A DNA stretch of 46,289 nucleotides from Dysgonomonas sp. Marseille-P4677. GTDB taxonomy: Bacteria; Bacteroidota; Bacteroidia; Bacteroidales; Dysgonomonadaceae. Position 1 is the first letter of the stretch. Each line of letters starts with the position of its first letter. The position numbers and the translations under genes were made by a program. The stretch is taken from contig NZ_JAEPKU010000019.1 of assembly GCF_016652235.1 (NCBI RefSeq), positions 1-46,289 on the forward strand. Direction: 5' to 3'. The notes beneath the pieces were generated by a model. It was given only the letters and a program-made list of their open reading frames with translations. It had not been told where the DNA came from and searched no databases. Below, piece after piece: positions 11,879 to 32,795 of the stretch.

Positions 11879-11923
11879 TGTAATATTTATTACACCACGT
11901 TTGCTAAATATTTTTGAAATTTG
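11879..11923 (+). promoter_or_regulatory. nrfHA promoter with Crp/Fnr-type operator
   Basis: The 16-bp perfect palindrome TGTAATATTTATTACA (7+2+7) lies at 11879-11894. Its centre is 29.5 bases upstream of a -7-like box GAAATTTG (11916-11923, one mismatch to TAnnTTTG), the spacing of a class II activator site. A better-matching box TATTTTTG at 11909-11916 lies closer and is an alternative. The same palindrome pattern precedes hcp and the cupin gene at 32823. The start codon of nrfH follows 69 bases later. The rest of the 337-base gap before nrfH holds no gene. Confidence 0.65.
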
Positions 11924-11992
11924 TGTATTAACATCGAATAACACTTCAATACAGAGAATTCGATTAATCGTAAAAACGGCAACTAGAAAAAC

Positions 11993-12571
11993 ATGAAGAA
12001 GTTTCTAAGTCACATACCACAACAATTTGTACTTCCATTATTTATATTGGGAGGTGTTATTGTCGGACTTGGGGCCTACTCGGTATATATGTCGAGAGCA
12101 TATTCATATTTGTCCGACGAACCTTCGGCATGTATCAATTGTCATATAATGACACCATACTATCAATCATGGAATCATAGTTCACATGCTCAATGGGCAA
12201 CCTGCAACGATTGTCATGTACCTCACGACAATGTGATCAGCAAATACGCTTTTAAAGCAAAGGACGGCTTATATCATGCAGCCGTATTTACAATGAAAGC
12301 TGAACCTCAGGTTATCCGACCACGAGACGAAAGTTATGAAGTAATAATGAATAATTGTATTCGTTGCCATACACAGCTCAATACTGAATTTGTAAAAACG
12401 GGAATGATCGACTATTGTGAGGTTCAAGAGGGTAAAGGCAAAGCCTGCTGGGATTGCCATACAGAAATACCTCATACAAAAGTAAGCAATATATCAGCTT
12501 CGCCTAATGCTATAGTTCCCCTACCGGCATCTCCGGTTCCTGATTGGTTGAAAAATAAAATGAAAAAATAA
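11993..12571 (+). CDS. nrfH: Cytochrome c nitrite reductase small subunit NrfH
   Basis: NrfH is the membrane-anchored tetraheme quinol dehydrogenase that feeds electrons from menaquinol to NrfA. The 192-residue product has one N-terminal membrane anchor (about 12-32, FVLPLFILGGVIVGLGAYSV) and four CxxCH heme sites: CINCH, CNDCH, CIRCH and CWDCH. The NapC/NirT family signature is visible around the first heme (SDEPSACINCHIMTPYYQSW). It is followed after 18 bases by nrfA, the normal gene pair. A Crp/Fnr-type operator lies upstream, consistent with control by nitrite or nitric oxide. Confidence 0.97.
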   Translation: MKKFLSHIPQQFVLPLFILGGVIVGLGAYSVYMSRAYSYLSDEPSACINCHIMTPYYQSWNHSSHAQWATCNDCHVPHDNVISKYAFKAKDGLYHAAVFTMKAEPQVIRPRDESYEVIMNNCIRCHTQLNTEFVKTGMIDYCEVQEGKGKACWDCHTEIPHTKVSNISASPNAIVPLPASPVPDWLKNKMKK

Positions 12572-12589
12572 TATAAAAAATAAAGATCT

Positions 12590-14089
12590 ATGCTTAAGAA
12601 ATTGACAGAAGCGATAAAGAGGAAACCAATAATTGGATGGGGCATATTTGCCGCAGTCATGGTTGGAGTGTTTTTGTTAGGCCTGTTAGCAGCATCCATA
12701 ACCGAACGCCGTGCGGAGATAGCTACTTTATACAATAATAAGAAAATAGAAATCTCCGGGATTAATGCACATAACGAGCAATGGGGTGAGAACTATCCTC
12801 GTGAGTATAATACTTGGAAAAAGACTCAGGAAATGGATTTCCGCAGTAAGCATCTTGGTAACGCACCGGAAGATATACTTGAACAACGCCCCGAAATGGT
12901 CGTTCTATGGGCAGGATATGCTTTTGCTATGGACTATTCTGCTCCTCGCGGACATATGCATGCCATCGAAGATGTTACCGGAACATTACGTACCGGATCT
13001 CCCGAAAATGGAGAAGGTGAAATACAACCGGGAACATGCTGGACATGTAAAAGCCCTGATGTACCTCGCATGATGCACGAAGTGGGTATCGCCGAATTCT
13101 ACAAAGCTAAATGGAGTCAATGGGGAAGTGATATAGTGAATCCGATAGGATGTGCCGATTGCCACGATCCTAAAACGATGAATCTCACAATTACTCGTCC
13201 GGGACTGGTTGAAGCTTTCGAACGCCAAGGAAAAGATATCACCAAAGCCACACCTCAGGAAATGCGCTCGTTAGTATGTGCTCAATGCCATGTTGAATAC
13301 TCATTCCAGGGAGAAGGTAAATACCTTACCCTACCATGGGACAAAGGCATGACAGTAGAAGCTATGGAGAATTTCTATGACAGCATACAGTTTACCGATT
13401 ATACACATAAACTAAGTAAGGCTCCAATCCTAAAGGCACAACACCCTGACTATGAAATATTCATGATGGGACCTCATGCTCAACGAGGATTATCGTGCGC
13501 CGATTGCCACATGCCTTATATGGCCGAGGGTGGAATTAAGTATTCCAATCATCAAATAATGAGCCCTCTTAAAAATATATCAGGAACATGTCAGACTTGT
13601 CATCGTGATTCGGAAGAGAATCTTCGGAATTATGTCTATGAATATCAAGATAAAGCATTAGAGATTAGAGATCGCATCGAACAAGAGCTGTCTAAGGCTC
13701 ACGTCATGGCTAAAACAGCTTGGGATAATGGAGCTACTGATCCCGAAATGAAAGAGTCTTTACAGTTAATACGCCAAGCTCAATGGCGTTGGGACTTTGC
13801 TGTAGCATCTCACGGTGCATCATTCCATGCTCCTGTAGAAACACAACGAATATTGGCTCATAGTCTCGACAGAACAATGCAGGCCCAGTTAGAACTTCAG
13901 AAAGTATTATTCAAGCATGGGATTGCAGATGTAAAAATGCCTGATATTTCAACTAAAGAAAAAGCTCAGGAATATATAGGTCTAGATATGAAAACGGTAA
14001 AAGAAAAGAAAGATAATTGGAAAAAAACAGTGCTTCCTAAATGGATCGAAAAAGCAAAGAAAGAGGGAAAACTAACAGCAAATATTTAA
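12590..14089 (+). CDS. nrfA: Ammonia-forming cytochrome c nitrite reductase catalytic subunit NrfA
   Basis: NrfA reduces nitrite to ammonium with six electrons in the periplasm and also reduces nitric oxide and hydroxylamine. The 499-residue protein has a signal anchor (about 15-36) and five heme sites: the catalytic CWTCK at 150-154, whose lysine replaces the usual histidine ligand, and four CxxCH motifs (CADCH, CAQCH, CADCH, CQTCH). The stretch CAQCHVEYSF supplies the active-site tyrosine, and QHPDYEIF the active-site histidine; an arginine in the region between hemes 1 and 2 would complete the pocket. It is co-transcribed with nrfH. A hairpin in the next gap (14110-14143) may end or dampen the transcript before the ccs genes. 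Confidence 0.97.
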   Translation: MLKKLTEAIKRKPIIGWGIFAAVMVGVFLLGLLAASITERRAEIATLYNNKKIEISGINAHNEQWGENYPREYNTWKKTQEMDFRSKHLGNAPEDILEQRPEMVVLWAGYAFAMDYSAPRGHMHAIEDVTGTLRTGSPENGEGEIQPGTCWTCKSPDVPRMMHEVGIAEFYKAKWSQWGSDIVNPIGCADCHDPKTMNLTITRPGLVEAFERQGKDITKATPQEMRSLVCAQCHVEYSFQGEGKYLTLPWDKGMTVEAMENFYDSIQFTDYTHKLSKAPILKAQHPDYEIFMMGPHAQRGLSCADCHMPYMAEGGIKYSNHQIMSPLKNISGTCQTCHRDSEENLRNYVYEYQDKALEIRDRIEQELSKAHVMAKTAWDNGATDPEMKESLQLIRQAQWRWDFAVASHGASFHAPVETQRILAHSLDRTMQAQLELQKVLFKHGIADVKMPDISTKEKAQEYIGLDMKTVKEKKDNWKKTVLPKWIEKAKKEGKLTANI

Positions 14090-14109
14090 GATAACAATAA
14101 CTAATTAAA

Positions 14110-14150
14110 AAGAAAGTGTCAGGACATAATCCGACACTTTCTTCTTTTAA
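14110..14150 (+). terminator. Hairpin between nrfA and ccsB, possible terminator or attenuator
   Basis: An 11-bp perfect stem AAGAAAGTGTC (14110-14120) pairs with GACACTTTCTT (14133-14143) around a 12-base loop and is followed by a weak pyrimidine run (CTTTT). It lies 9 bases before the ccsB start. It could partly terminate the nrfHA message and so lower ccs expression. Confidence 0.6.
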
Positions 14151-14158
14151 GATATAAG

Positions 14159-15427
14159 ATGAGCGAAGACAAAAGAAGAATGTGGCAATTCCCCTGGCAA
14201 TATAAAGAGAGTATTGCCTTTGTAGGAGGTATAACTATTATAGGGATCATCTTACAATTAATAATCGGAAAGTTCGATTTCTATCTGCTTTCAGCGCCGG
14301 TCAATATAATTATCGGAACAGGAATTATTTTACTACTCCTTCTATTATCCCTTAAACGGAAAAGTGTATTCTACCAATGGCTATCAGGTATTCCTTTCTC
14401 AGTAACACTTATTGTAGCGTTGCTTATTATGAGTATGATTATGGGATTGATTCCACAGGTTGTCCGTCTCGATCCTCACGATAATAGTTTTTCTTCCATA
14501 TTCGGGATAAAACAAATCACGACCTTTTGGCCATTTATATTAGTTTACATTGCAACCCTTCTCTCGCTCGGAGCTTTAATCATCCGTAGACTAATTGCAT
14601 TCAAAAAACAGGATTATGCGTTTTATCTTAATCATATAGGGTTATGGATTTTATTATTTGCAGCAGGATTAGGTTCTGCCGATATAAAACGATTTGTAAT
14701 GCATGTGAATGAAGGTGAGGTGGAATGGCGTGTATATAGTGATAGTCAGGATATCATAGATTTACCTATTGCCATCCAATTGAATGATTTCTATATGGAA
14801 GAATATTCGCCTAAGCTCACTATCATAGACCGTAATACAGGAGAATCTCAACCGACTAAAAAAGCAGAATACTTTTCTATAGACAATAAACGACCTAAGG
14901 GGCAAATTGCAGACTGGGATATAACCCTAAAAGAATATATACATGAGGCTATACGTAATAGCGACAGTACATATCATGAAGTACATATGCCAGGTTCATC
15001 TCCTGCTGCATTGGTTACAGCCGTAAATAAGAATACAGGAGTAGAGTGTAAGGGATGGGTATGCGGAGGTAATGTAGCCCAGTTATATATGACTCTCAAT
15101 CTAGATTCTACGTATTGTATTGTAATGACCCAGCCCGAGCCAAAACGGTTTGTATCTTATATCGATGTATTTACAGAAGATGGAGCCGAGTATAGAGATG
15201 TCGAATTAGAAGTAAATAAACCTCTAAAAGTAGGCAACTGGATGATTTACCAATACGGATATGATAACATGGCAGGAAAAATGTCTACCTACAGCAGTAT
15301 GGAATTAGTATACGATCCTTGGATATATCCTGCTTATCTGGGGATAACATTATTGGCTTTAGGCTCCATATGCCTTTTATGGAGAGGAAACAAGAAAAAA
15401 GAATCTACAAATAGTAATATAGCATGA
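14159..15427 (+). CDS. ccsB: Cytochrome c biogenesis protein, ResB/CcsB-like
   Basis: System II cytochrome c maturation uses CcsB (ResB) and CcsA to export heme and attach it to CxxCH apocytochromes. This 422-residue protein has membrane segments at about 18-37, 43-63, 78-98, 122-142 and 152-170, then a large periplasmic domain (about 175-385), and a final segment near 390-410. That layout is the ResB one. It overlaps the next gene, ccsA, by four bases (ATGA), which implies translational coupling. The gene follows nrfHA, whose nine hemes require it; here the two halves are separate genes, not the fused CcsBA of some relatives. Confidence 0.87.
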   Translation: MSEDKRRMWQFPWQYKESIAFVGGITIIGIILQLIIGKFDFYLLSAPVNIIIGTGIILLLLLLSLKRKSVFYQWLSGIPFSVTLIVALLIMSMIMGLIPQVVRLDPHDNSFSSIFGIKQITTFWPFILVYIATLLSLGALIIRRLIAFKKQDYAFYLNHIGLWILLFAAGLGSADIKRFVMHVNEGEVEWRVYSDSQDIIDLPIAIQLNDFYMEEYSPKLTIIDRNTGESQPTKKAEYFSIDNKRPKGQIADWDITLKEYIHEAIRNSDSTYHEVHMPGSSPAALVTAVNKNTGVECKGWVCGGNVAQLYMTLNLDSTYCIVMTQPEPKRFVSYIDVFTEDGAEYRDVELEVNKPLKVGNWMIYQYGYDNMAGKMSTYSSMELVYDPWIYPAYLGITLLALGSICLLWRGNKKKESTNSNIA

Positions 15428-16209
15428 CTTGGAGCGAATTTCTTTACTTTGCAATACCCTCTATTATTTGTTGGTTAGGGGCTGCAACACTAATATATAA
15501 AAATAGAGCAAGACGGATATCAGAAACACTAATGATTCTCGGTATTCTTATTTTCGCAGCTTTCATCGTAGGTCTATGGATTGGGCAAGCACGTCCGCCT
15601 TTACGTACTATTGGTGAAACTCGTTTATGGTATTCATTCTTCTTAGCTCTTATTGGATATCTTACATTCCGTCATTGGAAATACAAGTGGCTATTATCAT
15701 TTAGCGCGGTTGTAGCCTGCGTTTTTGTTTGTATAAACATTTTTAAGCCGGAAATTCATTCAACAAATCTTATGCCTGCTTTGCAGAGCTACTGGTTTGT
15801 ACCACACGTTACTGTATATATTTTATCTTACTCTATGTTAGGTGCTGCAACTATTGCCGCCTGCATACAGTTAAACAAGATGAATAAGACCGGGGCTGAT
15901 GACCGATTGTATCAGTTCATGGATAATATTGTATATGTAGGTTTCGGATTTCTTATGCTGGGGTTACTTATGGGTGCAGTGTGGGCCAAAGAAGCATGGG
16001 GACATTATTGGTCTTGGGATCCGAAAGAAACATGGGCTTTTGTTACATGTGCCGCTTATCTTGTTTATATCCATATGCGTATGCAAAGGATAGCTCCACG
16101 TTTTACTGTCTGGGTCTTACCTATTGCATTCATCCTGCTTATGATAACATGGATCGGAGTAAATTATCTTCCGGCTGCTCAAAATAGTATTCACACTTAT
16201 TCGAACTGA
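15424..16209 (+). CDS. ccsA: Cytochrome c biogenesis protein CcsA (heme-handling)
   Basis: The 261-residue protein is highly hydrophobic, with about eight membrane helices. It bears the tryptophan-rich WWD-type heme-handling motif WGHYWSWDPKETWAF at 192-206, the signature of CcsA/CcmF/CcmC proteins. Histidines flanking this motif (for example in VPHVTVYIL, about residue 125) would ligate the heme during transfer. It is shorter than average CcsA proteins (300 or more), but all core helices appear present. Its start overlaps the ccsB stop. The next gene, a Crp/Fnr regulator, begins 81 bases later behind its own -7 box. Confidence 0.92.
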   Translation: MTWSEFLYFAIPSIICWLGAATLIYKNRARRISETLMILGILIFAAFIVGLWIGQARPPLRTIGETRLWYSFFLALIGYLTFRHWKYKWLLSFSAVVACVFVCINIFKPEIHSTNLMPALQSYWFVPHVTVYILSYSMLGAATIAACIQLNKMNKTGADDRLYQFMDNIVYVGFGFLMLGLLMGAVWAKEAWGHYWSWDPKETWAFVTCAAYLVYIHMRMQRIAPRFTVWVLPIAFILLMITWIGVNYLPAAQNSIHTYSN

Positions 16210-16259
16210 GACATTGAGTTAATATAGGCTCTATCCTTTTTTTTAATCAGTGTAAATTA

Positions 16260-16267
16260 TATCTTTG
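16260..16267 (+). promoter_or_regulatory. -7 box before the first Crp/Fnr gene
   Basis: TATCTTTG matches TAnnTTTG exactly and lies 23 bases before the start codon, so the regulator pair probably has its own promoter besides any read-through from ccsA. No copy of the shared Crp/Fnr palindrome was found at the matching distance upstream. Confidence 0.5.
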
Positions 16268-16290
16268 AAGTACTTTAATCAAAGTATTCA

Positions 16291-16980
16291 ATGGCAGAAC
16301 AACTAGAACTTACGGAACGGCAAATCAATCTCATCCATAAGATCCCATTATTTAGAGGGCTAACGGATGATATGAAGGCAAAGCTATTGGATAAACTTGA
16401 TTATTCTGTTTCACGCATTCTTAAAGGTGAAGTCATAATCAAGCAAGATACAATATGCTCTCACATGCTTATTCTACTGGAAGGTAAACTTGAGGTCAAT
16501 ATTATCGATATTACCGGAAATTATATAAAAGTAGAGAATATCGTAGCACCAAGGGCTTTTGCCACCCCTCACTTGTTTAACGACAACAATATATTTCCTG
16601 CAACATTCTCCGTTGTTGAAGATGGAATACTGTTAAAAGCGACCAAAGAATCTGTATTTAAACTGATCAGCTCAGTACCCGATTTACTAAAGAACTTTCT
16701 TAAAGTAACCGGAAATTGCAATGCCTGTACAGTATCACGCTTAAGAATTCTTTCATACAAGAGCATACGCAGCCGTTTTGTTTATTATCTGTTTGAACAC
16801 AAGATAGAAGATAGCGTTTCCGAAATGAATCACAATCAAACTCAATTAGCTGTATACATTGGTGTATCGAGACCTGCACTGGCTAATGAAATAGCTAAAA
16901 TGGAAAAGGAAGGATTAATAACAGTCGATGGGGCAATTGTAAAACTACTTTCTTTAACCAAACTATCTCAATACATCTAA
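16291..16980 (+). CDS. Crp/Fnr family transcriptional regulator
   Basis: The 229 residues hold an N-terminal cyclic-nucleotide-binding-like beta barrel (about 18-130; GEVIIKQDTICSHMLILLEGKLEVNI is characteristic) and a C-terminal Crp-type winged helix (about 150-225), with the recognition helix in YIGVSRPALANEIAKMEKEGLI. No N-terminal cysteine cluster of the Fnr kind is seen, so it is not an oxygen-sensing iron-sulfur Fnr. The neighbourhood (nrfHA, ccs, hcp) resembles that of HcpR, the Crp/Fnr regulator of hcp and nrf in Bacteroidetes such as Porphyromonas gingivalis, which senses nitrosative stress through heme. It is followed 55 bases later by a second, diverged copy. It could bind the palindrome upstream of nrfH, hcp and the cupin gene. 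Confidence 0.88.
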   Translation: MAEQLELTERQINLIHKIPLFRGLTDDMKAKLLDKLDYSVSRILKGEVIIKQDTICSHMLILLEGKLEVNIIDITGNYIKVENIVAPRAFATPHLFNDNNIFPATFSVVEDGILLKATKESVFKLISSVPDLLKNFLKVTGNCNACTVSRLRILSYKSIRSRFVYYLFEHKIEDSVSEMNHNQTQLAVYIGVSRPALANEIAKMEKEGLITVDGAIVKLLSLTKLSQYI

Positions 16981-17035
16981 TAGTTGATCCGATTTATTTT
17001 CTAACTTAGCTGCTAATATCTATTACAATACATCC

Positions 17036-17707
17036 ATGAACATAGATAACATAGCTAAATGTAACATCTTTACCGGCTTACAACCTGAAACGATTAAAGA
17101 CATCTTAGTCTCGGTACAAACAGAGGAACCTTTTTTCAAAAAGGGAGACCTATTAGCCCTACAGGGAGAGCCATGCAACAGGCTTATTATTATAACCAAA
17201 GGAAGCGTCAAAGCCGAAATGATCGACCCTTCGGGAAAGGTTGTAAAAGTAGAAGATATATCTGCACCTCAGGCTTTAGCCATACTCTTTTTGTTTGGTA
17301 AGAAGAATAAATTCCCGGTACAAGTAACTGCTTGTGAAGATGTCGAAACGCTGATCATTCATAAACAGTCTGTATTGAAGATGCTCACTCAGAATGAACA
17401 GCTACTGAAAAACTATCTTGATGTTTCTGCTAATTATGCCTCTGTACTGACAGAGAAACTGAATATAATGTCGTTCCGTACTATTCGACAGAAACTATCC
17501 ATGTATATCTTAAACTTATCGGAAGGAGAGAACAACCTAAAATTAGACAGAAGCCAGAACGCATTGGCTGAGTACTTTGGTGTTTCCAGACCTTCCTTAG
17601 CGCGAGAGTTGCGTAACATGCAAGATGATGGACTTATAAGTGTAGATAACAAGAATATACTAATTGTTGACAGAAATAAACTTATCCATCTAATCAAGTT
17701 CTTATAA
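17036..17707 (+). CDS. Crp/Fnr family transcriptional regulator (second of tandem pair)
   Basis: This 223-residue paralogue has the same two-domain layout: sensor barrel at about 8-125 (FFKKGDLLALQGEPCNRLIIITKGSVKAEMI) and a winged helix with YFGVSRPSLARELRNMQDDGLI at about 183-204. Its recognition helix shares VSRPxLAxE with the first copy, so the two could bind closely related sites. There is no Fnr-type cysteine set. It lies 55 bases after the first regulator and converges on hcp, whose stop is 70 bases away. HcpR-type function is likely for one or both; which one binds which promoter cannot be told from sequence. Confidence 0.88.
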   Translation: MNIDNIAKCNIFTGLQPETIKDILVSVQTEEPFFKKGDLLALQGEPCNRLIIITKGSVKAEMIDPSGKVVKVEDISAPQALAILFLFGKKNKFPVQVTACEDVETLIIHKQSVLKMLTQNEQLLKNYLDVSANYASVLTEKLNIMSFRTIRQKLSMYILNLSEGENNLKLDRSQNALAEYFGVSRPSLARELRNMQDDGLISVDNKNILIVDRNKLIHLIKFL

Positions 17708-17712
17708 GAGCA

Positions 17713-17757
17713 TGAGAGGAATCATCAGACATACCTAATAATCCCTCTCCTATAATT
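17713..17757. terminator. Possible bidirectional terminator between regulator and hcp
   Basis: GAGAGG at about 17715 pairs imperfectly with CCTCTC near 17750 across an AT-rich loop, and a T-rich run follows on the plus strand (ATAATTTTTC). It lies between two convergent genes. The pairing has a bulge, so this is tentative. Confidence 0.35.
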
Positions 17758-17776
17758 TTTCTATATTCTTATATGG

Positions 17777-19417
17777 TTAACTTGCCAGAAACATCTCTAT
17801 ATCTTTCTCAACTGTAGATATTCCACCAATACCAAAGTTTTCAACAAGTACTTTCGCTACATTCGGAGAAAGGAATCCGGGTAGCGTCGGCCCAAGATGT
17901 ATATTCTTTACACCCAAATGAAGCAGTGCTAATAATACTATTACAGCCTTTTGTTCGTACCATGCAATATTGAACGCAATCGGTAAATCATTTATGTCTT
18001 CCAGTCCGAATACCTCTTTCAATTTAAGAGCAATAACAGCTAATGAATAGCTATCGTTACATTGTCCTGCATCCAACACGCGAGGAATACCACCTATATC
18101 ACCTAATGGCAATTTATTGTATCTGTATTTAGCACAACCGGCTGTGAGTATAACTGTATCGTTAGGCAAAGCCTCTGCAAAATCAGTATAATAACTCCTA
18201 CTCTTCATACGACCATCACAACCAGCCATCACAAAGAATTTGCGTATAGCTCCCGATTTTACAGCATCGACAACTTTATCTACTAGGGCCATAACCTGAG
18301 CATGAGCGAAACCTCCCACTATTGTACCTTCTTCTATCTGGCGTGGAACTTGTGACTGCTTAGCCATCTCTATAATCTCAGAAAAGTCTTTTTGTGTTCC
18401 TTCTTTACGTTCCGCAATATGTTTTGCTCCATCAAGGCCAGCCGATCCTGTTGTAAATATCTTGTGCTTGTATGTTGCATTTGCAGCAGGCGGTACAATA
18501 CAGTTGGTAGTAAATAAGATAGGGCCATTGAATGCCTCAAAATCCTCTTTTTGCTGCCACCAAGCTCCACCATAGTTCCCTACCAGGTGCTTATACTTTT
18601 TCAATTCGGGATAATAGTGAGCAGGAAGCATTTCGCTATGCGTATATACATCTATACCTGTTCCTTCTGTTTGTTGAAGCAATTCCTCAATATCTCTCAG
18701 GTCGTGTCCGCTTATCAATATCCCTGGATTCTTACCGACTCCAATATTTACTTCCGATATCTCCGGATTACCAAAACGCCCTGTATTGGCAGAATCGAGT
18801 AAGGCCATGGCTTGCACACCAACTTTCCCTGTTTCGAGAGTCAATGCGATTAACTCATCCGCACCTATGTCCTCTCTTGTAATCTGAGCCAAAGCATATT
18901 GCATAAATTTGAATAATTCATCATCTGTACTATTCAGATTATAGGCATGCTCTACATAGGCTGCCATCCCTTTTATACCATAATGAATCAATTCTTTCAG
19001 AGAACGAATATCCTCATCTTTTGTTGATAAGACTCCTACTTCTTTAGCCTTTGTCATATATTCCGATTCTGCACCGTTCCATGTACAAGCATCAGGCAGA
19101 TTAGCAGATGAAACGTTTAGCTGTCCGGCTAATTCACTTTTCAAAGCCAAGCCTTGGGTAACTTTCTTCTTAATGGCTTCAAAATCGAAATTGGCATTTG
19201 TGATACTAGTAAATAAGGCATCTGTGATAAAAATATCAGCCTCTTTAGAAGCCTTATTTTCTTTTCTCAACAAGTCATTATATACAGCTATTCCCTTTGT
19301 AACGAAAAGCAGTAAATCCTGAATATCAGAAACCTCCGGTGTTTTCCCGCAAACTCCTTTAATTGTACATCCTGTTCCTTTAGATGTTTCCTGGCATTGA
19401 TAGCAAAACATATTCAT
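17777..19417 (-). CDS. hcp: Hybrid cluster protein (hydroxylamine reductase)
   Basis: Hcp reduces hydroxylamine in vitro and is regarded as a nitric oxide reductase in cells under nitrosative stress. The 546 residues match the family. The N-terminal cysteines C5, C8, C17 and C23 follow C-x2-C-x8-C-x5-C, the class I pattern found in anaerobes, expected to hold a [4Fe-4S] cluster. The hybrid 4Fe-2S-2O cluster ligands lie in the C-terminal half: [29 protein letters not shown] and [10 protein letters not shown] supply the cysteines, with histidine and glutamate ligands from [13 protein letters not shown] and the final part. The gene stands alone on the minus strand behind a Crp/Fnr-type operator. 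No separate hcr reductase gene is adjacent. Confidence 0.97.
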
Positions 19418-19441
19418 ATCTTTGTCTTTTTAGATTTGAAG

Positions 19442-19488
19442 CAAAGCTACGAAACATAGTATACCCGAATTTGTATCAAATGTTACAA
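19442..19488 (-). promoter_or_regulatory. hcp promoter with Crp/Fnr-type operator
   Basis: On the minus strand a consensus -7 box TAGCTTTG (19449 to 19442) lies 24 bases before the hcp start. Upstream is TTGTAACATTTGATACAA (19488 to 19471), a near-perfect 8+2+8 inverted repeat with one mismatch. The operator centre is 30.5 bases upstream of the box, placing it near -41 of the start site, the class II activator position. There is no convincing -33 element, which fits dependence on an activator. Confidence 0.75.
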
Positions 19489-19641
19489 TCAGAGATAAAG
19501 TTTTTCAACAAGACGGAAAATATCTCACGGGGGATAAATAAGAATTTTAACTAAAAAGTGACAAACTTGTACTGATTTTACCTCTATTACAGTATAGTAA
19601 TTCTTACCTAATCGTTGAGTATTATATATAGATAAATTAAT

Positions 19642-20946
19642 TTAATCTGCAAACATATCTAGAATGCAACCATTCTCGGCCCAATAAAGATGAGTATATC
19701 CGGCTATCGCATTTTTATATCTCATCAATTTTGCATCTACAGCAGCACCTTTAGCGTTATATTGCTGTACAATGCTGAATGCATCTTTATTCTCTACAGA
19801 TGAATAATGGAATTCATGTCCTTTCACCGGTATCCCTTTGTACTCAAACTGTCGATATCCCAATTTGAGTTTCATGTTTTCCATACTCGCATTTTGCTTA
19901 AATATATCTACCATAGGATATTGTGTCCCATCTTTATCGGCAATGGTAGTTGACAGATACATCATACCACCACATTCGGCGAATAGCTTCCCCCCTGACT
20001 CAACATACCTATTGATACTCTGCCGCATCGCTTCGTTAGCAGACAAGTCATTAAGAAACAGTTCCGGATAACCTCCGGGCAAATACACCAGATCGGCATC
20101 GGGCAATTCCGTATCTTTTAATGGGCTGAAAAAGGTAACGATTCCTATTTGCTTCAAGTACTCTATATTTTCATGGTATACAAAGTTAAAGGCCTCATCA
20201 GAAGCAACAGTAATTCTCATATTTTGAAAAACCTGATCTTTCACCTCTGGAATATCAAATACTACATCACGCCTTGTTATTGAAAGTAGTCTATCAATAT
20301 TAATATATTTTTCTACTAAAGAGGCAGTATTATCTGCAAATTCGTCGAAACGGTATTCTTTATCAAGGCTTAACCCTAGATGCCTTGAAGGAACTTCTAT
20401 TGCCGTATTCTTTGGCAGGTATCCCAGTGCTTCTATTCCGACTTCCTGACAAGCCTCTTTCAGAAAATTGTAATGACTCTCGGATGCTACAAAGTTGAAG
20501 ATAGCGCCAACTATATTTATGTTCTTATAAAAGTTCTTAAAACCATAAAGCATAGCTGCCGCCGAATATGCCATAGACTTAGCATTGATTACCAGAACGA
20601 CCGGAATATTCAATAATTCGGCAATACGGGCACTACTACCTTCCATTTTATCATAACCATCAAATAACCCCATCACCCCTTCAGTTATATTAACTTCTGA
20701 TGTTGAAGTATATTTTGTATATATAGACCTTACGTGACACTCTGATGATAAGAATAGATCCAGATTAATCGAATTACGTCCTGAAGCCTGATCATGATAT
20801 TTTGTATCGATATAATCCGGCCCGCATTTAAACGGTTGAGTTCGAAGACCTCTATTCCTTATAGCTCTCAACAATCCGAGAGTTACAGTAGTTTTGCCGG
20901 AGCCGGAAGAAGTCGCTGAAATAAGAAAATGAGAAGAATTTATCAT
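19642..20946 (-). CDS. cbiA: Cobyrinate a,c-diamide synthase
   Basis: CbiA amidates the a and c carboxylates of cobyrinate using glutamine and ATP. The start at 20946 is chosen because it gives MINSSHFLISATSSGSGKTT, where the P-loop (SATSSGSGKTT, about 8-18) sits at the usual position; a longer frame adds 13 residues before it. The N-terminal dethiobiotin-synthetase-like domain includes KCGPDYIDTKYH and EGVMGLFDG. The C-terminal class I glutaminase domain (about 240-434) has YLPGGYPELF and LFAECGGMMYLS with the nucleophilic cysteine. It is divergent from the cbiK operon and has no riboswitch of its own in sight; a -7 box TACTTTTG lies at 20974-20967. Confidence 0.95.
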   Translation of the reverse strand: MINSSHFLISATSSGSGKTTVTLGLLRAIRNRGLRTQPFKCGPDYIDTKYHDQASGRNSINLDLFLSSECHVRSIYTKYTSTSEVNITEGVMGLFDGYDKMEGSSARIAELLNIPVVLVINAKSMAYSAAAMLYGFKNFYKNINIVGAIFNFVASESHYNFLKEACQEVGIEALGYLPKNTAIEVPSRHLGLSLDKEYRFDEFADNTASLVEKYINIDRLLSITRRDVVFDIPEVKDQVFQNMRITVASDEAFNFVYHENIEYLKQIGIVTFFSPLKDTELPDADLVYLPGGYPELFLNDLSANEAMRQSINRYVESGGKLFAECGGMMYLSTTIADKDGTQYPMVDIFKQNASMENMKLKLGYRQFEYKGIPVKGHEFHYSSVENKDAFSIVQQYNAKGAAVDAKLMRYKNAIAGYTHLYWAENGCILDMFAD

Positions 20947-20966
20947 ATAACGATAAGTTTTATTTA

Positions 20967-20974
20967 CAAAAGTA
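20967..20974 (-). promoter_or_regulatory. -7 box of the cbiA promoter
   Basis: The minus-strand sequence TACTTTTG matches TAnnTTTG and lies 20 bases before the chosen cbiA start. This short leader leaves no room for a cobalamin riboswitch on that strand. Confidence 0.45.
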
Positions 20975-21050: not shown

Positions 21051-21242
21051 TACCTTTGTAACTGTTTAGGTGATGTAAACAGACATCCGTCTTTTACATG
21101 AAAAGGGAATCCGGTTAAAATCCGGAACAGTGCCCGCTACTGTGGACTCCTTTAATATATTCTGAACAATTACTTTAGCCACTATTCTTTTTGAGAGAAT
21201 GGGAAGGCGTTCGGAATGGAGCAAGTCAGGAAACCTGCCAAA
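21051..21242 (+). ncRNA. Cobalamin riboswitch (with -7 box) upstream of the cbiK operon
   Basis: A -7 box TACCTTTG (21051-21058) is followed by the aptamer from about 21062: the early GGTG segment, AAAAGGGAATCCGGTTAAA, GAACAGTGCCCGCTACTGT and, at the end, GGAGCAAGTCAGGAAACCTGCC (cited in parts). These are the conserved B12-box elements. It ends about 67 bases before the cbiK start. The sequence is clearly diverged from the other two cobalamin riboswitches of this window, which resemble each other more closely. Confidence 0.9.
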
Positions 21243-21308
21243 CTCACAAGTAAATATATATTCTCGGGGTCAGGAATATAATTAACTAACATTATTCTTA
21301 CATATTTA

Positions 21309-26664: not shown

Positions 26665-26669
26665 AAGAA

Positions 26670-28490
26670 TTAAATAATTCTACCCTCTTCATCTATCAAC
26701 AAAATATTCAATTCCCCTTTAGGCAATAGAGGGGAACATACTTTATGACATTTATCTTTCAATAAAGAAAAGAAAGAGTTTCCTTGTTCGGGAATAATAT
26801 TCCACAACTGACGAGCCATCGTTATATCTTGGATTGCATCCGCTACATCATCTGCGCATCCTGCTTCTTTTGCTATACCTGATAAGAATTCTTTATTCAT
26901 TACAACCCTCTTGCTATGAGTATCTAAAGAACCTTCTGCCAGTTTCACTGCTTTTCCGATCATTATACCCATTGTTACACATTTGAAACCAAGTTCAGAT
27001 GCTATCTTTATCGTCTCTCCTATAAAATTTCCGTAATGAATAAATGCCTGAGAGGGTAAATTAGGATATCTTCCTTTGATAAAACGTTCACTTTTTGCTC
27101 CTGAATTTATAACTACCATCTCACAACCCAGCGCTTTTGCAACTAGCATCTCACGACGTATGGATGAAACAAAAGCTTCTGATGAGAATGGTTTTACAAT
27201 GCCGGAAGTACCTATAATAGATATCCCTCCTACTATACCCAATTTGGGATTAAATGTTCTCAAAGCCAGTTCTTCTCCGTTAGGAACTGATATTGTTATA
27301 TCCACTCCTGTTTTCAGACTCTTATTTGGCAATTTATCCTGATGATGTCGAAATACTTTATATACTTCCCGTTTCATCATCATACGAGGTGTCTTATTTA
27401 TAGAAGGTTCACCTATCGCTGAATCCAATCCGGGTAAAGTAACTTTTCCCACACCTCTCCCTTGCAAAAAACGAACTCCTCTATGATTAGTGTTGAGACA
27501 AACTGTCGAAACTATTTCTTGCCCATTGGTCACATCAGGATCGTCTCCCGAATCTTTTATAACTGTACTACTTGCATCATTACCATTTATTGTTGTAGAA
27601 AAAACAGGGATCCTCACCCATTCTCCATTTGGCAATGTAATGCTAACCTCCGATTGTTCCTCATTTGTAAGTAATGCGATTAGAGCAGCCTTTGTAGCAG
27701 CAGTAGCACAGGTACCTGTTGTATATCCGGTTCTAAGCTCAAAGAAATCAGGAAATAATGTTTCTATTTGCTTTCTTAGCCCATTTTCTCCATAAACTGG
27801 AATAAATGAAGGTGATAGAGCCGGACGTTTGATCACTAGAACGGGAATATCTAATTTTAAGGCGGAATGTATCTTTTCGTTGAAACCTCCGGATTCGCCA
27901 CTTTCTTTGGTTATAATAGCCTCTGGTTTTAACTCCTCGAACAAGAGTGCCTCATCCTCACCTTGCTTATAATATATTATCTTTTCGTGTGGAAATTGTT
28001 CTTGTAGCGCTATTGAAAGTGAATCTTGTCTTTCTAATATTCGAAACCAACAATTGTGTTTTAGCCAATACGGCTTCAATTTCGAGATCGTATTCACTCC
28101 TGTAAGAGCCAGCAGGTTATCAATTTTATTTTTTTCTAAATAATCAATAGCATCTTTATAAGAATCGAACCACAGCAGATTTTCTGCATGCTCGGGATAG
28201 TTTCGTTCAAGTCTGATTACAGGGATGCTTAACTGATCGGATACAATTGCAATATTTTGATGTAATGCTTCAGCAAAAGGATGAGCAGCATCGATAATAA
28301 GTTTTACGTTTTGTTCGTTACAGAACTTTATCATATTCTCTTTATCCATACCTCCGGTTAAACGAATCGCATGTACACTCTCGACTTCCTGTAAGTTGCC
28401 TCTTGTAGAATAATAGTAAGGTTTAGCAGCTTCATCGCATACACGAATAACTCTCCGTCCTTCCGTTGTACCTCCAAATATCAGAATCAT
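26670..28490 (-). CDS. CbiJ-CbiD fusion: precorrin-6A reductase plus cobalt-precorrin-5B C1-methyltransferase
   Basis: Residues 1-245 are a CobK/CbiJ reductase: ILIFGGTTEGRRV at the start, DAAHPFAEALHQNI (about 67-80) and ALTGVNTISKLKPYW (about 128-142). From 253 a CbiD protein follows, with its signature RTGYTTGTCATAATKAAL, then IKDSGDDPDVTNGQEIV and GTSGIVKPFSSEAF. CbiD methylates C1 and CbiJ performs the following reduction, so the fused parts act one after the other. It is the last gene of the riboswitch-led minus-strand operon and overlaps the ATPase gene by four bases. Confidence 0.94.
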   Translation of the reverse strand: MILIFGGTTEGRRVIRVCDEAAKPYYYSTRGNLQEVESVHAIRLTGGMDKENMIKFCNEQNVKLIIDAAHPFAEALHQNIAIVSDQLSIPVIRLERNYPEHAENLLWFDSYKDAIDYLEKNKIDNLLALTGVNTISKLKPYWLKHNCWFRILERQDSLSIALQEQFPHEKIIYYKQGEDEALLFEELKPEAIITKESGESGGFNEKIHSALKLDIPVLVIKRPALSPSFIPVYGENGLRKQIETLFPDFFELRTGYTTGTCATAATKAALIALLTNEEQSEVSITLPNGEWVRIPVFSTTINGNDASSTVIKDSGDDPDVTNGQEIVSTVCLNTNHRGVRFLQGRGVGKVTLPGLDSAIGEPSINKTPRMMMKREVYKVFRHHQDKLPNKSLKTGVDITISVPNGEELALRTFNPKLGIVGGISIIGTSGIVKPFSSEAFVSSIRREMLVAKALGCEMVVINSGAKSERFIKGRYPNLPSQAFIHYGNFIGETIKIASELGFKCVTMGIMIGKAVKLAEGSLDTHSKRVVMNKEFLSGIAKEAGCADDVADAIQDITMARQLWNIIPEQGNSFFSLLKDKCHKVCSPLLPKGELNILLIDEEGRII

Positions 28491-29500
28491 TCTATTACTA
28501 TCTTTTCTAAAAGTTCTTCAATTGTATAAACCGATGCTATACACTTTCCCAACTTTAAAATCCTAATATCATCGCCGACTATTTCGATACAGAAATCGGA
28601 TTCGATATCACATGAAGCCATTATACCGTTTCTTTGTAGCGCTTTTCTTATCATTGCATACATTTGTCCGTGCCCCAGAATCTTTATCTGTTTTGTATAA
28701 TCATTCTCAACACGAAACAACCCCGTATGCTGATCCAATATAATGCCTTTACGGGCAAAAAACCGACTAAGGCTTCCATTCAATGATAGATCTTCAGGGG
28801 TACCAATACGTATTCCGATTCCTTTATCCATAAGCCATATTTTATCTGCTATTTGCAAAGCCAACTCAAGATCGTGAGTAGATAAGAATATTGTTTTATT
28901 CGTTTTTCGTGACAACTGATGCAGAAGCTGCATAATCTCCACTTTACTGGGAAAATCAAGAAACGCTGTCGGTTCATCCAGCAATACAATCGGTGTCTCT
29001 TGAGCCAACGCTTTTGCTATCATCACTTTCTGACGTTCTCCGTCACTCAGTGTATGAACCATTCGTTGCCTAAGATTTTCTATCTTAACCAATGATATCG
29101 ATTTATCCACTATTGCCCGATCCTCTTTGCTAAGTCTCCCCCAAAAACCTGTATAGGGGCTGCGTCCTAAACCAATAAGCTCATGGGTTGTCATATTTTT
29201 TATTTCGAATTTATCGGTTAATACGACACTAATCAATGTAGATAATTCTTTCTCTGCATATTCTTCGATCTCTCGATCTTGGATATAAATATCTCCGAAT
29301 AGCTTTGGTTGAAAAGCAGACAAAGTTCTCAATAAAGTAGACTTACCTATTCCATTCGCCCCTAATAAACATGTTAGCTCTCCGCTGAATATAGAACAAT
29401 TGACATTTTCAGCAACAACCCTTCTATTTCGCTTGGATGTATAACCTATTGCAAGGTCTCTTATATCTATTGTTTTCTCTCTTTGCATCATCTTAAGCAC
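28487..29500 (-). CDS. btuD: Cobalamin-type ABC transporter ATP-binding protein (BtuD/FecE-like)
   Basis: This is the ATPase of an iron-siderophore/B12-type importer. Walker A (GANGIGKST) lies at 47-55, the signature LSDGERQ at 151-157 and Walker B (IVLLDEP) at 171-177, all in normal order. The usual BtuD domain ends near residue 255; here about 80 more residues follow (HGQMYAMIRKALQRNG to LLEKIVIE), a C-terminal extension of unknown role. The first ATG overlaps the permease gene by eight bases; two further ATGs at residues 4 and 5 are possible starts. Cobalamin as substrate is inferred from the cbi genes on both sides and the riboswitch at the head of the operon. Confidence 0.9.
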   Translation of the reverse strand: MLKMMQREKTIDIRDLAIGYTSKRNRRVVAENVNCSIFSGELTCLLGANGIGKSTLLRTLSAFQPKLFGDIYIQDREIEEYAEKELSTLISVVLTDKFEIKNMTTHELIGLGRSPYTGFWGRLSKEDRAIVDKSISLVKIENLRQRMVHTLSDGERQKVMIAKALAQETPIVLLDEPTAFLDFPSKVEIMQLLHQLSRKTNKTIFLSTHDLELALQIADKIWLMDKGIGIRIGTPEDLSLNGSLSRFFARKGIILDQHTGLFRVENDYTKQIKILGHGQMYAMIRKALQRNGIMASCDIESDFCIEIVGDDIRILKLGKCIASVYTIEELLEKIVIE

Positions 29501-30527
29501 TTATTTCATTCTTGCGTTTTCCGAAAAGAACAGAGATAACGATAGGTGCCCCGATAAGCGCCGTAACCGAATTGATCGGCAATGCACCTTCGAATCCCGG
29601 CATGCGTGCAATCAGATTGCAAAATAAAGCAAGCGAAGCACCTGTTAATGCTACGGCGGGCATCAGTATCCGATGGTCTGACGACATAAAGACAGTACGA
29701 CACAAATGTGGAACAGCCAATCCCAGAAAAACGATAGGTCCACAATAAGCAGTCACTATAGCTGTAATAACACATGAGCAAGCTATAGTAGACAGGCGGG
29801 CACGCTTTATATTCAACCCCAAATTACGCGCATAGTTTTCACCAAGTAACATTAAATTCAATGTCTTTATAAGTAAGAAAGAAATAGGGATAAGTACTAA
29901 CATAATGCATACAAATGTATTAACCTGGTTACCTGACACCTTCGAAAAACTACCTAAACCCCAAATCACATATGCACGTACATCTTCATCGTTACTGAAA
30001 AATTTTAACACCCCTATTATGGCAGAGGCAACATAACCTATCATAACTCCGATAATCAATAGAATAACATTCCCTTTAATTCTTTGAGAGATTGTAATAA
30101 TAATCGCCATCACAGACATTGCTCCGGTAATAGCGGCAACCGATACGGCAACTTCACCGAAAAATCCGAGCTTGCTAAGTGCAGTACCCGCAATGCTACC
30201 CGACAAAAGAATAATAAACGCGACTCCCAAACTCGCACCAGAACTAATACCCAATTCGGACGGACCTGCCAAAGGGTTTCTAAAAACTGTTTGCATTTGC
30301 AGTCCGCTAATGGACAAACCTGCTCCTGCAAACAAGGCGGTAATTGTCTGAGGAAAACGTGACTTCCAAATAATATTTTGCCATATATCAGATTCATCAA
30401 CAGTATTAAATAAGATATTCCAAACAGACTGTATCGGTATAGAGATCGTTCCTAAAATGAGATTTAGGAAGAAGAATACCAGTATAGAAACAAAAATTAA
30501 ACAAAGAGATATTATTTGACGATTCAT
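29493..30527 (-). CDS. btuC: Cobalamin-type ABC transporter permease (BtuC/FecCD family)
   Basis: The 344 residues form a FecCD-type permease with about ten membrane helices. Landmarks are SRFPQTITALFAGAGLSISGLQMQTVFRNPLAGPSELGISSGASLG in the N-terminal third (the RxPR-like and G-L-x-x-Q-x-x-x-x-N-P-L-A-x-P motifs) and GPIVFLGLAVPHLCR in the C-terminal third, the coupling region for the ATPase. It is co-transcribed with the lipoprotein gene before it (one-base overlap) and the ATPase after it. The transporter carries B12 or a precursor across the inner membrane; a TonB-dependent BtuB is not in the window. Confidence 0.92.
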   Translation of the reverse strand: MNRQIISLCLIFVSILVFFFLNLILGTISIPIQSVWNILFNTVDESDIWQNIIWKSRFPQTITALFAGAGLSISGLQMQTVFRNPLAGPSELGISSGASLGVAFIILLSGSIAGTALSKLGFFGEVAVSVAAITGAMSVMAIIITISQRIKGNVILLIIGVMIGYVASAIIGVLKFFSNDEDVRAYVIWGLGSFSKVSGNQVNTFVCIMLVLIPISFLLIKTLNLMLLGENYARNLGLNIKRARLSTIACSCVITAIVTAYCGPIVFLGLAVPHLCRTVFMSSDHRILMPAVALTGASLALFCNLIARMPGFEGALPINSVTALIGAPIVISVLFGKRKNEISA

Positions 30528-31657
30528 TATTTTAGTAATTCGTAATAAACAGGGGTATGCTCCGGCAATAAAGAGGGATGGAATATTTTTATCAAGTCGG
30601 CTAACACTATTTCGGGCTCTACCGGGGTATTTTCATAAAAAGGTTTTTCTTTAAGATTACAATAGATTAACCTCTTATTTTTAAACGCCTTAAAGTCAGC
30701 ATAGCGTGCATCACTTTGTTTTAGTGCTTCGTAACCAAATGGGCCATTATGGCTATTGACCATTCGCCAATAATCGGCATTCGCGCCCTGAGAATAAACA
30801 GTCTCAAAATCGAGATAAAACCCTCCCGACTCGTTATCATTCTGCATAAAATAAGAAGCACCGGCATCTCTGAATAATTGAGCCAAATAGCTCTTTCCTC
30901 CTACTACATACCAGTTTCCTGAGTGAAGTTCTCCACTAAGGATTGTAGGCTTTTGTTCGGCAGATTCGGCCAAAGCTTTAAGATCATTGTATTTTTGCTC
31001 TATTTCTTTAAATTGGATGTTTGCTTTTTCTTCTATTCCCAAAAGCATTGCAGTAAACTTTATCCACTCGACTTGCCCCAATGGAGAACTTTCCTTATAA
31101 CCAAGAAAACTAACGAGTGGAATACCCAGATTTTTGATAGCGTCGTACCCTCCACGCTTAAAAGGAGAAACTAGTATAATATCAGGATCTAAAGCCATAA
31201 CCAGTTCACTATCGAACTCACCCTCTATCCCGATCTTTCTGGTTTTAGCGTTTCTCAATTGTTCGTTCATTTGTTTATTAAACAAAAAGCGGGTACTGGT
31301 AACGCCAACAACTTTATCAATAGCATCTAACTTAATAAAATTGGACAATTGCAACGTAGTCATACAAATAACTCCCCGCACAGGTATTTCTATTATCTCA
31401 TAGCCGGAAGGTATACCTGTTCTGTCTGTTCCCCTATTTAATAACGCGTAGCGATATTGTAAGTCACTTTCACCCGATGGATCTTTAATATCTACAAGGC
31501 GGTAATTCCCATGATCTGAAATTTTAAAGCCTTTGGCATATCTTATTGTTGCCGTATCTTGATTTATCACCGTAACCTCTTCCGATTTCCTATTTGACTT
31601 ACAAGATATAAGACCGACAACTATAAGTGTCGTGATAAAATATATTATTTTTTTCAT
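30527..31657 (-). CDS. btuF: Cobalamin-type ABC transporter substrate-binding lipoprotein (BtuF-like)
   Basis: The protein begins with a lipoprotein signal (MKKIIYFITTLIVVGLISCK, cysteine at residue 19). The rest is a class III periplasmic binding protein: IIEIPVRGVICMTTLQLSNFIKLDAIDKVVGVT opens the first lobe, ALDPDIILVSPF marks the hinge side, and YKESSPLGQVEWIKFTAMLLG the second lobe (given in parts). It delivers substrate to the BtuC-BtuD partners encoded next. The 376-residue length is greater than E. coli BtuF (266) and closer to FecB-like Bacteroidetes lipoproteins. The position directly after cbiL behind a cobalamin riboswitch argues for a corrinoid substrate. Confidence 0.88.
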   Translation of the reverse strand: MKKIIYFITTLIVVGLISCKSNRKSEEVTVINQDTATIRYAKGFKISDHGNYRLVDIKDPSGESDLQYRYALLNRGTDRTGIPSGYEIIEIPVRGVICMTTLQLSNFIKLDAIDKVVGVTSTRFLFNKQMNEQLRNAKTRKIGIEGEFDSELVMALDPDIILVSPFKRGGYDAIKNLGIPLVSFLGYKESSPLGQVEWIKFTAMLLGIEEKANIQFKEIEQKYNDLKALAESAEQKPTILSGELHSGNWYVVGGKSYLAQLFRDAGASYFMQNDNESGGFYLDFETVYSQGANADYWRMVNSHNGPFGYEALKQSDARYADFKAFKNKRLIYCNLKEKPFYENTPVEPEIVLADLIKIFHPSLLPEHTPVYYELLK

Positions 31658-31663
31658 ACAGAT

Positions 31664-32368
31664 TTATTTATGAATAATAATAAGAGAGAAGTATGGAAAT
31701 TTTTGGGAAAGGATTTCAGACTTGTCTTGCGTGTACAACTCTTTATTTACAATTCCTGCATTCTCAAAATAATGAATCGTAATATTTGGAATCTCTATTA
31801 CAGCCTGCTTTATTACACTTTCGCACTGGGAAGCTTTCATCACAACTAGAGTTTTACCCTTTTCTATCCTATTGAAAAGTTCTTCAAAAGATATAATACC
31901 CGGTATAACATTAAGCTCCTCTTCCTGTTTTACTATATGGATATTTGCTAAAGCTCCGCAAGCTATGAAAGCCGGAATACCAGCTATCTGTTGTGTCAAG
32001 ATATTCCTTGCTATCAAATCTTCTTCTATGTAGTAACTCGATGAATAAAAACCAGCATGTCCTTCTGCTGTCACAGCTATTTCATATCCTTTCCGGTATA
32101 AAAAAGCTATTTCATCAGACACCTTACGGTAGCTGTCGATTGCTAAAGAACGATTTTTACTCATAGGAATATCAAACAATTTAATCTTCGATTTGCCAAT
32201 GCCCAGTTCAAGTAATATATCTAAGGCCCGCGAAGAAATTCTCCCTCCCGAAAGCGATGTAGAAGGACAAAAAATAAAATCTGCCTTTTGTAAAGATTTT
32301 AATCCTTTTAAGGATATAAGTTCCGGATCTCCCGGACCAAGAGAAATAAATGTTACATAATCAGACAT
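31664..32368 (-). CDS. cbiL: Precorrin-2/cobalt-factor II C20-methyltransferase
   Basis: CbiL (CobI) adds the C20 methyl group right after cobalt insertion. The 234-residue protein has the tetrapyrrole methylase signs VTFISLGPGDPELISLKGLKSLQKADFIFCPS (about 6-37), the AVTAEGHAGFYSSSYYI segment and IAGIPAFIACGALANIHI. In most CbiL proteins the second segment reads 'GDP.lyst..Yi'; here GDP is replaced by EGHAGFYSS, a modest deviation. It is the first gene of the minus-strand B12 operon, 114 bases from the riboswitch and 6 bases before btuF. This transport-plus-synthesis arrangement puts uptake and the early C20 step under one switch. Confidence 0.92.
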   Translation of the reverse strand: MSDYVTFISLGPGDPELISLKGLKSLQKADFIFCPSTSLSGGRISSRALDILLELGIGKSKIKLFDIPMSKNRSLAIDSYRKVSDEIAFLYRKGYEIAVTAEGHAGFYSSSYYIEEDLIARNILTQQIAGIPAFIACGALANIHIVKQEEELNVIPGIISFEELFNRIEKGKTLVVMKASQCESVIKQAVIEIPNITIHYFENAGIVNKELYTQDKSEILSQKFPYFSLIIIHK

Positions 32369-32481
32369 CTCAAAAACTCATTTTTTAGAGTAACAGATGC
32401 TTTTAGAATAGGGTTAAAAGACAACATGGATGCAGTCAGTTAAGTTTTAAGCCTATACCTCGAGCTTTAACTAAATAATTC

Positions 32482-32669
32482 TGGCAGGTCTTCTGACTTA
32501 CTTCTTCTTTGAAATGCCTTCCCATTCTTTTGAAACAGTGGCCTGAGTATTATTCAAAGACTTTGGCGAAGCTTACAGCAGCGGGTCTGTTCAGGATTTA
32601 CACCTGATTCCCTTTTCATTATTTATCCGAGAATACGGAAGAATGACACCAAAACTGGCTACAAAGGTA
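32482..32669 (-). ncRNA. Cobalamin riboswitch (with -7 box) upstream of the cbiL-btuFCD-cbiJD operon
   Basis: On the minus strand a consensus -7 box TACCTTTG (32669 to 32662) precedes the aptamer, which has GGGAATCAGGTGTAAATC, CAGACCCGCTGCTG and AAGTCAGAAGACCTGCC in order (about 32656 to 32482). The core is almost identical to the riboswitch at 3375-3556 and clearly different from that at 21062-21242. It ends about 113 bases before the cbiL start. Confidence 0.9.
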
Positions 32670-32750
32670 TAATATTTTATTAATTATGCGAATCTGGATT
32701 TAGACGTTAAATATTTTATTTTCTTAATATCCTCTCAAAAAACTTCGAAG

Positions 32751-32795
32751 TGTAACATATGCTACAAATTATCTATCATCACACTCATAACTTTA
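32751..32795 (+). promoter_or_regulatory. Promoter of the cupin-DUF438-DUF2249 operon with Crp/Fnr-type operator
   Basis: TGTAACATATGCTACA (32751-32766, 7+2+7 with one mismatch) matches the operator pattern of nrfH and hcp. Its centre lies 29.5 bases upstream of a -7-like box TAACTTTA (32788-32795, last base differing from TAnnTTTG). The cupin start follows 27 bases later. This is the third member of the inferred regulon. Confidence 0.68.

Follow-up and report, generated by a model that had tools for sequence, protein, structure and literature searches.

Two paralogous Crp/Fnr regulators as the probable readers of two operator classes before nrfHA, hcp and a cupin-DUF438 operon in Dysgonomonas sp. 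Marseille-P4677

Genes and operators of the window

A stretch of 46,289 nucleotides from Dysgonomonas sp. Marseille-P4677 (RefSeq assembly GCF_016652235.1, contig NZ_JAEPKU010000019.1, positions 1 to 46,289; hereafter the window) carries three 16-bp palindromic sites, located before the nitrite reductase genes nrfHA, the hybrid cluster protein gene hcp, and an operon encoding cupin, DUF438 and DUF2249 proteins. A first-pass annotation had assigned all three to a single regulon responsive to nitric oxide (NO) or nitrite. Our analysis suggests that they quite probably serve as operators for two paralogous Crp/Fnr activators with adjacent genes, namely, HcpR (P0002) and an nrf-linked paralogue (P0001). 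The operators and their -7-like boxes are as follows.

11879 to 11894, plus strand: nrf operator TGTAATATTTATTACA, T at position 6 of both half-sites
11916 to 11923, plus strand: -7-like box GAAATTTG of nrfH, 21 nt past the nrf operator
19472 to 19487, minus strand: hcp operator TGTAACATTTGATACA, C at position 6 of both half-sites
19442 to 19449, minus strand: -7-like box TAGCTTTG of hcp, 22 nt past the hcp operator
32751 to 32766, plus strand: cupin-operon operator TGTAACATATGCTACA, C at position 6 of both half-sites
32788 to 32795, plus strand: -7-like box TAACTTTA of the cupin gene, 21 nt past the cupin operator

Each site matched TGTAAYATWTRHTACA exactly at the previously assigned coordinates and strand, 12 of the 16 columns were invariant when read directly from the sequences, and the distances from operator centre to box were re-measured as 29.5 (nrfH), 30.5 (hcp), and 29.5 (cupin) bases, all in agreement with the first-pass annotation. 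We take these distances to place the three operators near -41, a class-II-like position. The boxes resemble the -7 box of Bacteroidetes, and their earlier positions hold, although an exact TATTTTTG at 11909-11916, 7 bp nearer the nrf operator than the chosen box, had been overlooked. Orthologous nrfH promoters support the 21-nt spacing, since 53 of the 60 with a site have 21 nt, 6 have 20 nt, and 1 has 22 nt, with spacings of 20 to 22 nt being those tried in the relatives. The genes concerned are listed below.

11993 to 12571, plus strand: nrfH, cytochrome c nitrite reductase small subunit (TIGR03153 above cutoff)
12590 to 14089, plus strand: nrfA, ammonia-forming cytochrome c nitrite reductase (NF008339 above cutoff)
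14159 to 15427, plus strand: ResB-like cytochrome c maturation gene (PF05140)
15424 to 16209, plus strand: CcsA-like cytochrome c assembly gene (PF01578)
16291 to 16980, plus strand: P0001, nrf-linked Crp/Fnr regulator (helix SRPALAN; Asn at CRP-185, Ile at the HcpR Met68 position)
17036 to 17707, plus strand: P0002, HcpR (by sequence features; helix SRPSLAR; Arg at CRP-185, Met68 kept)
17777 to 19417, minus strand: hcp, hybrid cluster protein (NF003658 above cutoff)
32823 to 33149, plus strand: small cupin protein (PF07883)
33152 to 34387, plus strand: P0003, DUF438-hemerythrin-PAS protein (PF04282, PF01814, PF13596)
34395 to 34910, plus strand: P0004, DUF1858-DUF2249 protein (PF08984 above cutoff, PF10006 below cutoff)

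From nrfH to P0002, six plus-strand genes follow one another with gaps of at most 81 bp, so that both regulators may be cotranscribed with nrfHA; the P0002 gene is convergent with hcp, 69 bp apart. For P0003, a start at ATG 33152 is likelier than the listed TTG 33146, and the same is true of ATG 34395 over the listed TTG 34347 for P0004. The best named relative of the window DUF438 protein is from Dysgonomonas (87% identity), and the third is from Bacteroides reticulotermitis (83%). A degenerate TGTAAT-like palindrome at 17012-17027 (plus strand), between the two regulator genes, is a candidate autoregulatory site. In addition, a cobalamin riboswitch (Rfam RF00174) is found on the minus strand, opposite to the cupin operator and a short distance upstream of it (32466-32668), and two further RF00174 riboswitches occur in the window at 3359-3562 (minus) and 21051-21256 (plus).

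Conservation of the operators

A total of 101 family genomes (denoted by G numbers) were searched for nrfH, hcp, DUF438, and P0002, and 130 regions were fetched. Sites were scored at thresholds of at least 10 of 12 for the palindrome and at least 15 of 18 for palindrome plus box (the composite), with C and T at position 6 given equal weight. Within 300 bp, the composite occurred at 48 of 67 nrfH promoters (0.4 expected from dinucleotide-resampled sequence), 47 of 56 hcp promoters (0.8 expected), and 22 of 39 cupin promoters (0.4 expected). At operon distance, it preceded nrfH in 60 of 67 cases (within 1500 bp; 3.0 expected), hcp in 54 of 56 (within 1100 bp; 1.4 expected), and DUF438 in 28 of 48 (within 800 bp; 0.8 expected); hcp was examined in 56 of 57 genomes, G117 with hcp at a contig end being left out, and no scoring site was found before hcp in G007 and G030. 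The comparison with related genomes that the first-pass annotation had proposed thus found the sites present in orthologous promoters and enriched far above resampled sequence. Moreover, the 1.09 Mb of fetched sequence contained 129 composite matches (score of at least 16) upstream of a target and 28 elsewhere, of which, by our count, 23 were target-promoter palindromes read on the other strand and 5 were unrelated (5/157 overall). On this evidence, the sites look like genuine Crp/Fnr operators.

The DUF438 gene lay directly behind hcp on the same strand in 24 of 48 genomes, 7 of which also had a site of their own. Either an own site with C at position 6 or a position directly behind hcp was found in 45 of 48 (neither in G022, G098, and G106), which bears out the earlier proposal that the third operon belongs with hcp. 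As a separate observation, G003 (L200) carries nrfH twice, the copies lying on one strand about 1.5 kb from each other.

Two operator classes at position 6

Position 6 was C in all 108 hcp half-sites, all 56 DUF438 half-sites, and 43 of 44 half-sites of the overlapping cupin set, whereas at nrfH it was T in 103 of 120 half-sites and C in 17. In 38 genomes with both nrf and hcp sites, 29 combined TT at nrf with CC at hcp, 7 had CC at both, and 2 had a mixed nrf site with CC at hcp; where DUF438 had its own site and hcp also had one (23 genomes), both sites carried C in every case. Mixed nrf sites were those of G011, G100, and G123. The window follows the same division, with C in the four hcp and cupin half-sites and T in both nrf half-sites. 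Thus, the "Y" of the original pattern merges two classes, one with C at hcp and DUF438 and the other with T at nrfH.

P0002 has the Crp/Fnr architecture, with PF00027 (cyclic nucleoside monophosphate-binding fold) and PF13545 (Crp-type helix-turn-helix), and its recognition helix GVSRPSLAREL places Pro at the CRP-181 position. HcpR2 has been described as a Crp/Fnr protein with Pro at CRP-181 that adjoins hcp and has the predicted motif GTAACnnnnGTTAC, with residues 180 and 181 correlating with bases of the site (PMC1274295; here and below, statements on published systems refer to the available parts of the cited papers). The hcp operator TGTAACATTTGATACA fits this motif with one mismatch, in the right half. 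By these features, P0002 can be identified as an HcpR with HcpR2-type traits. Its paralogue P0001, identical to it at 72 of 228 aligned positions, has Crp/Fnr domains and is no response regulator of a two-component system. The two differ at the position of Met68, the proposed heme ligand of Porphyromonas gingivalis HcpR (PMC12750200): P0002 has Met there, as do 48 of the 49 regulators assigned only to hcp, and P0001 has Ile, as do the 12 remaining members of its clade. Because of this Ile, P0001 was not filed as an HcpR, and it may sense differently from HcpR. The position gives no simple sensor split, because Ile also occurs in ERPSLSR proteins assigned to hcp or to both targets (G014, G017, G018, and G121) and Met is kept in 40 nrf regulators; one other nrf regulator (G071) has Ile as well.

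Altogether, 118 regulator reads were collected, of which 2 (<170 residues) were dropped and 116 were aligned and their recognition helices compared; a further 6 were left out, 2 because the helix could not be read and 4 removed by hand (two from G018 and one each from G024 and G034), giving 110 regulators. CRP numbering was placed on the window helices by eye, against what we take to be the helix of CRP itself. Arg at the CRP-185 position went with a C site in 59 regulators and a mixed site in 1, and Asn, Lys, or Ser went with a T site in 48 and a mixed site in 2. The association extends to eight nrf-side regulators with Arg185, for which the nrf site was C in G009, G010, G012, G014, G017, G021, and G121 and half C in G011. 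In G014, G017, G021, and G121, one such regulator was found (E up to 1e-22) and the sites found had C at position 6; a single shared regulon does fit these four genomes. On the regulator tree, residue 185 and base 6 each changed three times, and on well-supported branches two independent pairs agreed and none disagreed.

A second association was observed at position 4, where HcpR proteins with Gln181 and Glu184 went with C in at least half of the half-sites (8/8). This link is weaker, because 30 regulators outside this type, including 28 with Pro181 and Val184, also went with C at position 4 to that extent. In G009, G010, and G011, the nrf regulator has Arg185, its HcpR partner has Gln181/Glu184, and the hcp half-sites are TGTCAC or TGTCTC; the Gln181/Glu184 pair is also seen in G003 and G019, whose nrf regulator has Asn185.

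Further targets and wider relatives

The whole-genome scan suggested earlier was run over 4,729,948 bases, and TGTAAYATWTRHTACA, itself written from the three window sites, matched exactly only at those sites. With up to 2 mismatches, 277 matches were obtained versus 204 for a reversed control, and the loose pattern alone was dropped as a genome-wide regulon finder. The pattern plus a -7-like box at fixed spacing, loosened so that the three window sites fit, gave 7 matches (3 being the window sites) versus 1 for the reversed control. One of them, TGTAACAATTGTTACA of the TGTAAC class, precedes a yecH-like DUF2492 gene distant from the window, and another, TGTAATAACTATTACA of the TGTAAT class, precedes a distant Porin_O_P gene. 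In 11 fetched genomes (G003, G005, G007, G009-G012, G016, G019, G024, and G068), porin orthologues (68-79%) occupy the place between the operon's site and nrfH, immediately before the latter. In G002, yecH and the cupin operon are divergently oriented, each with its own site, that of yecH being high-scoring. A YecH gene is present in the iron-response table of a Bacteroides thetaiotaomicron study (PMC10434189). Two composite matches were set aside: C214, inside a DUF3408 gene, was rejected, and C215, a weak palindrome before an AraC-type gene, was doubted.

Among 80 named DUF438 loci, many of which come from the family already searched and so do not form an independent set, 32 had a site before cupin or DUF438, with 62 C and 2 T half-sites. 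By family, sites were found at 12/19 loci of Dysgonomonadaceae, 6/10 of Porphyromonadaceae, 5/5 of Tannerellaceae, 1/3 of Bacteroidaceae, 1/2 of Paludibacteraceae, and 7/32 without a family label, and none before cupin or DUF438 in Prolixibacteraceae (0/4), Marinilabiliaceae (0/4), or Rikenellaceae (0/1). In 10 of the 48 DUF438 loci without a site, hcp was in the same locus. At the order level, 6 of 32 nrfH loci had a scoring site within 1400 bp, 3 of them within 70 bp, one of these being a variant; no regulator match was found at any of the 32, within about 1500 bp on each side at most.

Interpretation and alternatives

We propose that HcpR (17036-17707) would read TGTAAC half-sites and activate hcp, the cupin-DUF438-DUF2249 operon, and the distant yecH-like gene. 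P0001 (16291-16980), the penultimate gene of a possible nrfHA-resB-ccsA-regulator-hcpR operon, would read TGTAAT half-sites and activate nrfHA and the distant porin gene. Arg versus Asn at the CRP Arg185 position would read C versus T at position 6, thereby separating the two branches. Binding, activation from near -41, an NO or nitrite signal, and insulation of the branches are what we infer from these sequence patterns. A broader reading, which we judge slightly less likely than not, is that sister switches for nitrite reduction and NO defence may be separated by residue 185 and base 6, that the branches of G009-G011 may be kept apart in another way, through position 4, and that the nrf switch of this lineage, without Met68, may sense something other than NO by heme.

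Several observations weigh against this division. No scoring site was found before 7 of 67 nrfH genes (G029, G030, G064-G067, and G070), and no own scoring site before 20 of 48 DUF438 genes. The cupin site of G094 is half C and half T (the sole T of the cupin set), and the yecH site of G002 is likewise half T and half C. Eighteen regulator roles were assigned by hand, 15 of them contrary to the script's neighbour rule, on the basis of likeness to P0001 or P0002 or of a single regulator being found. G018 (L287) has three Crp/Fnr genes in the vicinity of its two hcp copies; the second of these copies adjoins an Arg185 regulator and shows no more than a poor, mixed candidate site, which was not counted, and that left-out regulator would have counted on the opposite side. 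With only two independent pairs, phylogenetically corrected significance was not reached (sign test). G012 (L205, L103, and L138) has two regulators that each carry Arg185 and Pro181, and its nrf and hcp sites belong to one class, TGTAAC, so that insulation is not universal. The position-4 link is also blurred by C at that position in the nrf sites of another genus and by G022. Finally, cross-talk may exist, because hcpR deletion modestly lowers nrfA in B. thetaiotaomicron (PMC13370916).

Such exceptions lend some weight to an alternative that we nonetheless regard as unlikely, in which the operators read by the two regulators overlap and the proteins compete or form heterodimers, with position 6 tuning affinity and not separating branches. 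It would account for the mixed sites at nrf (G011, G100, and G123), cupin (G094), and yecH (G002), for the two regulators and one operator class of G012, and for the SRP common to both window helices, but C in 164 of 164 hcp and DUF438 half-sites, together with the predominance of T at nrfH, is against it. A little less likely again is the model of the first-pass annotation, in which HcpR alone controls all three promoters and tolerates C or T at position 6, with the second Crp/Fnr gene having another role. The 12 of 16 positions common to the three sites, the one operator class for hcp and nrf where one regulator was found (G014, G017, G021, and G121), and the modest nrfA decrease in the hcpR deletion (PMC13370916) are in line with that model; against it, nrf and hcp differ as TT versus CC in 29 of 38 genomes, and base 6 follows the residue of the nrf-assigned regulator. 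As position 6 follows residue 185, at which the adjacent regulators of the window differ, one regulon for all three operons is not supported in this genome, whereas the Crp/Fnr nature of the operators, their class-II-like position, the NO/nitrite theme, and the grouping of the third operon with hcp were retained from the earlier proposal. It is very improbable that the operators belong to another Crp/Fnr protein encoded elsewhere: one more distant Crp/Fnr-like match exists in the genome (C201; E 4.2e-4), but GTAACnnnnGTTAC is predicted for hcp-adjacent Pro181 proteins (PMC1274295), and the bases of the operators vary with the helices of the hcp-linked and nrf-linked regulators. That the sites resemble one another by chance, in intergenic DNA rich in AT, as the many loose matches might suggest, is hardly credible given sites conserved at fixed spacing and only 5 of 157 high-scoring composite matches unrelated to targets.

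Control by two adjacent paralogues, as preferred here, would turn a loose 16-bp pattern into a testable code assigning promoters to two Bacteroidales regulators, would place a poorly characterised cupin-DUF438/hemerythrin/PAS-DUF2249 operon in the HcpR branch, and would offer a concrete candidate class for additional factors.

Comparison with known systems

Part of this arrangement is already predicted in print, namely, the HcpR2 motif and, for B. thetaiotaomicron, a distinct Crp-like regulator of nrf. The residue-185/base-6 link, the cupin operon as an HcpR target, and the other added targets did not turn up in searches of an open-licence library, made largely from listings, a result that does not prove their absence. 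The predicted target of HcpR2 is hcp alone in most Bacteroides species (PMC1274295), whereas the cupin-DUF438-DUF2249 operon and yecH are added here as predicted targets; the available part of the same paper names residue 185 only as a contact residue, in contrast to the association with base 6 described above. P. gingivalis HcpR (chain 9day) is the best-scoring solved chain by sequence for both window regulators; it has Gln at the CRP-181 position, unlike the Pro of P0002, and its Met68 is common to P0002 and replaced by Ile in P0001.

In Clostridioides difficile, hcp is under HcpR-type control during nitrosative stress, with a putative site only before frdX-hcp, and DUF438, cupin, hemerythrin, and nrfA are absent from the main text of that paper as far as it was available (PMC12915319). 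DUF2249 proteins have been linked to denitrification or nitrate respiration (PMC11218638 and PMC6282519). Among them, Thermus DrpA/DrpB are DUF1858 and DUF2249 proteins tied to nitrate respiration whose expression requires DnrT (PMC6282519); they differ from the window operon in partners and organisation, and no DUF438-hemerythrin-PAS protein is described in the available part of that source. Desulfovibrio, as proposed here, has a dedicated nrfHA regulator beside HcpR (PMC5701242 and PMC12285233), but NrfS-NrfR is a two-component system and not Crp/Fnr, and the name NrfR is therefore not used for P0001.

Another close parallel is B. thetaiotaomicron, in which the Crp-like BT1413 is predicted for the nrf operon BT1414-1418 and HcpR BT0688 for hcp (PMC10434189), and in which loss of hcpR abolishes hcp expression and lowers nrfA only modestly (PMC13370916). 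A SnoA hairpin of this species is described as aligning with the HcpR site (PMC13370916); a palindromic operator such as that of the hcp promoter (19472-19487), if transcribed, would itself resemble a covarying hairpin. Unlike here, no operator code is given for BT0688 and BT1413 in the available parts of the two papers (PMC10434189 and PMC13370916). As proposed for the window, B. thetaiotaomicron is predicted to have separate Crp-like regulators for hcp and nrf, P0001 being a possible counterpart of BT1413.

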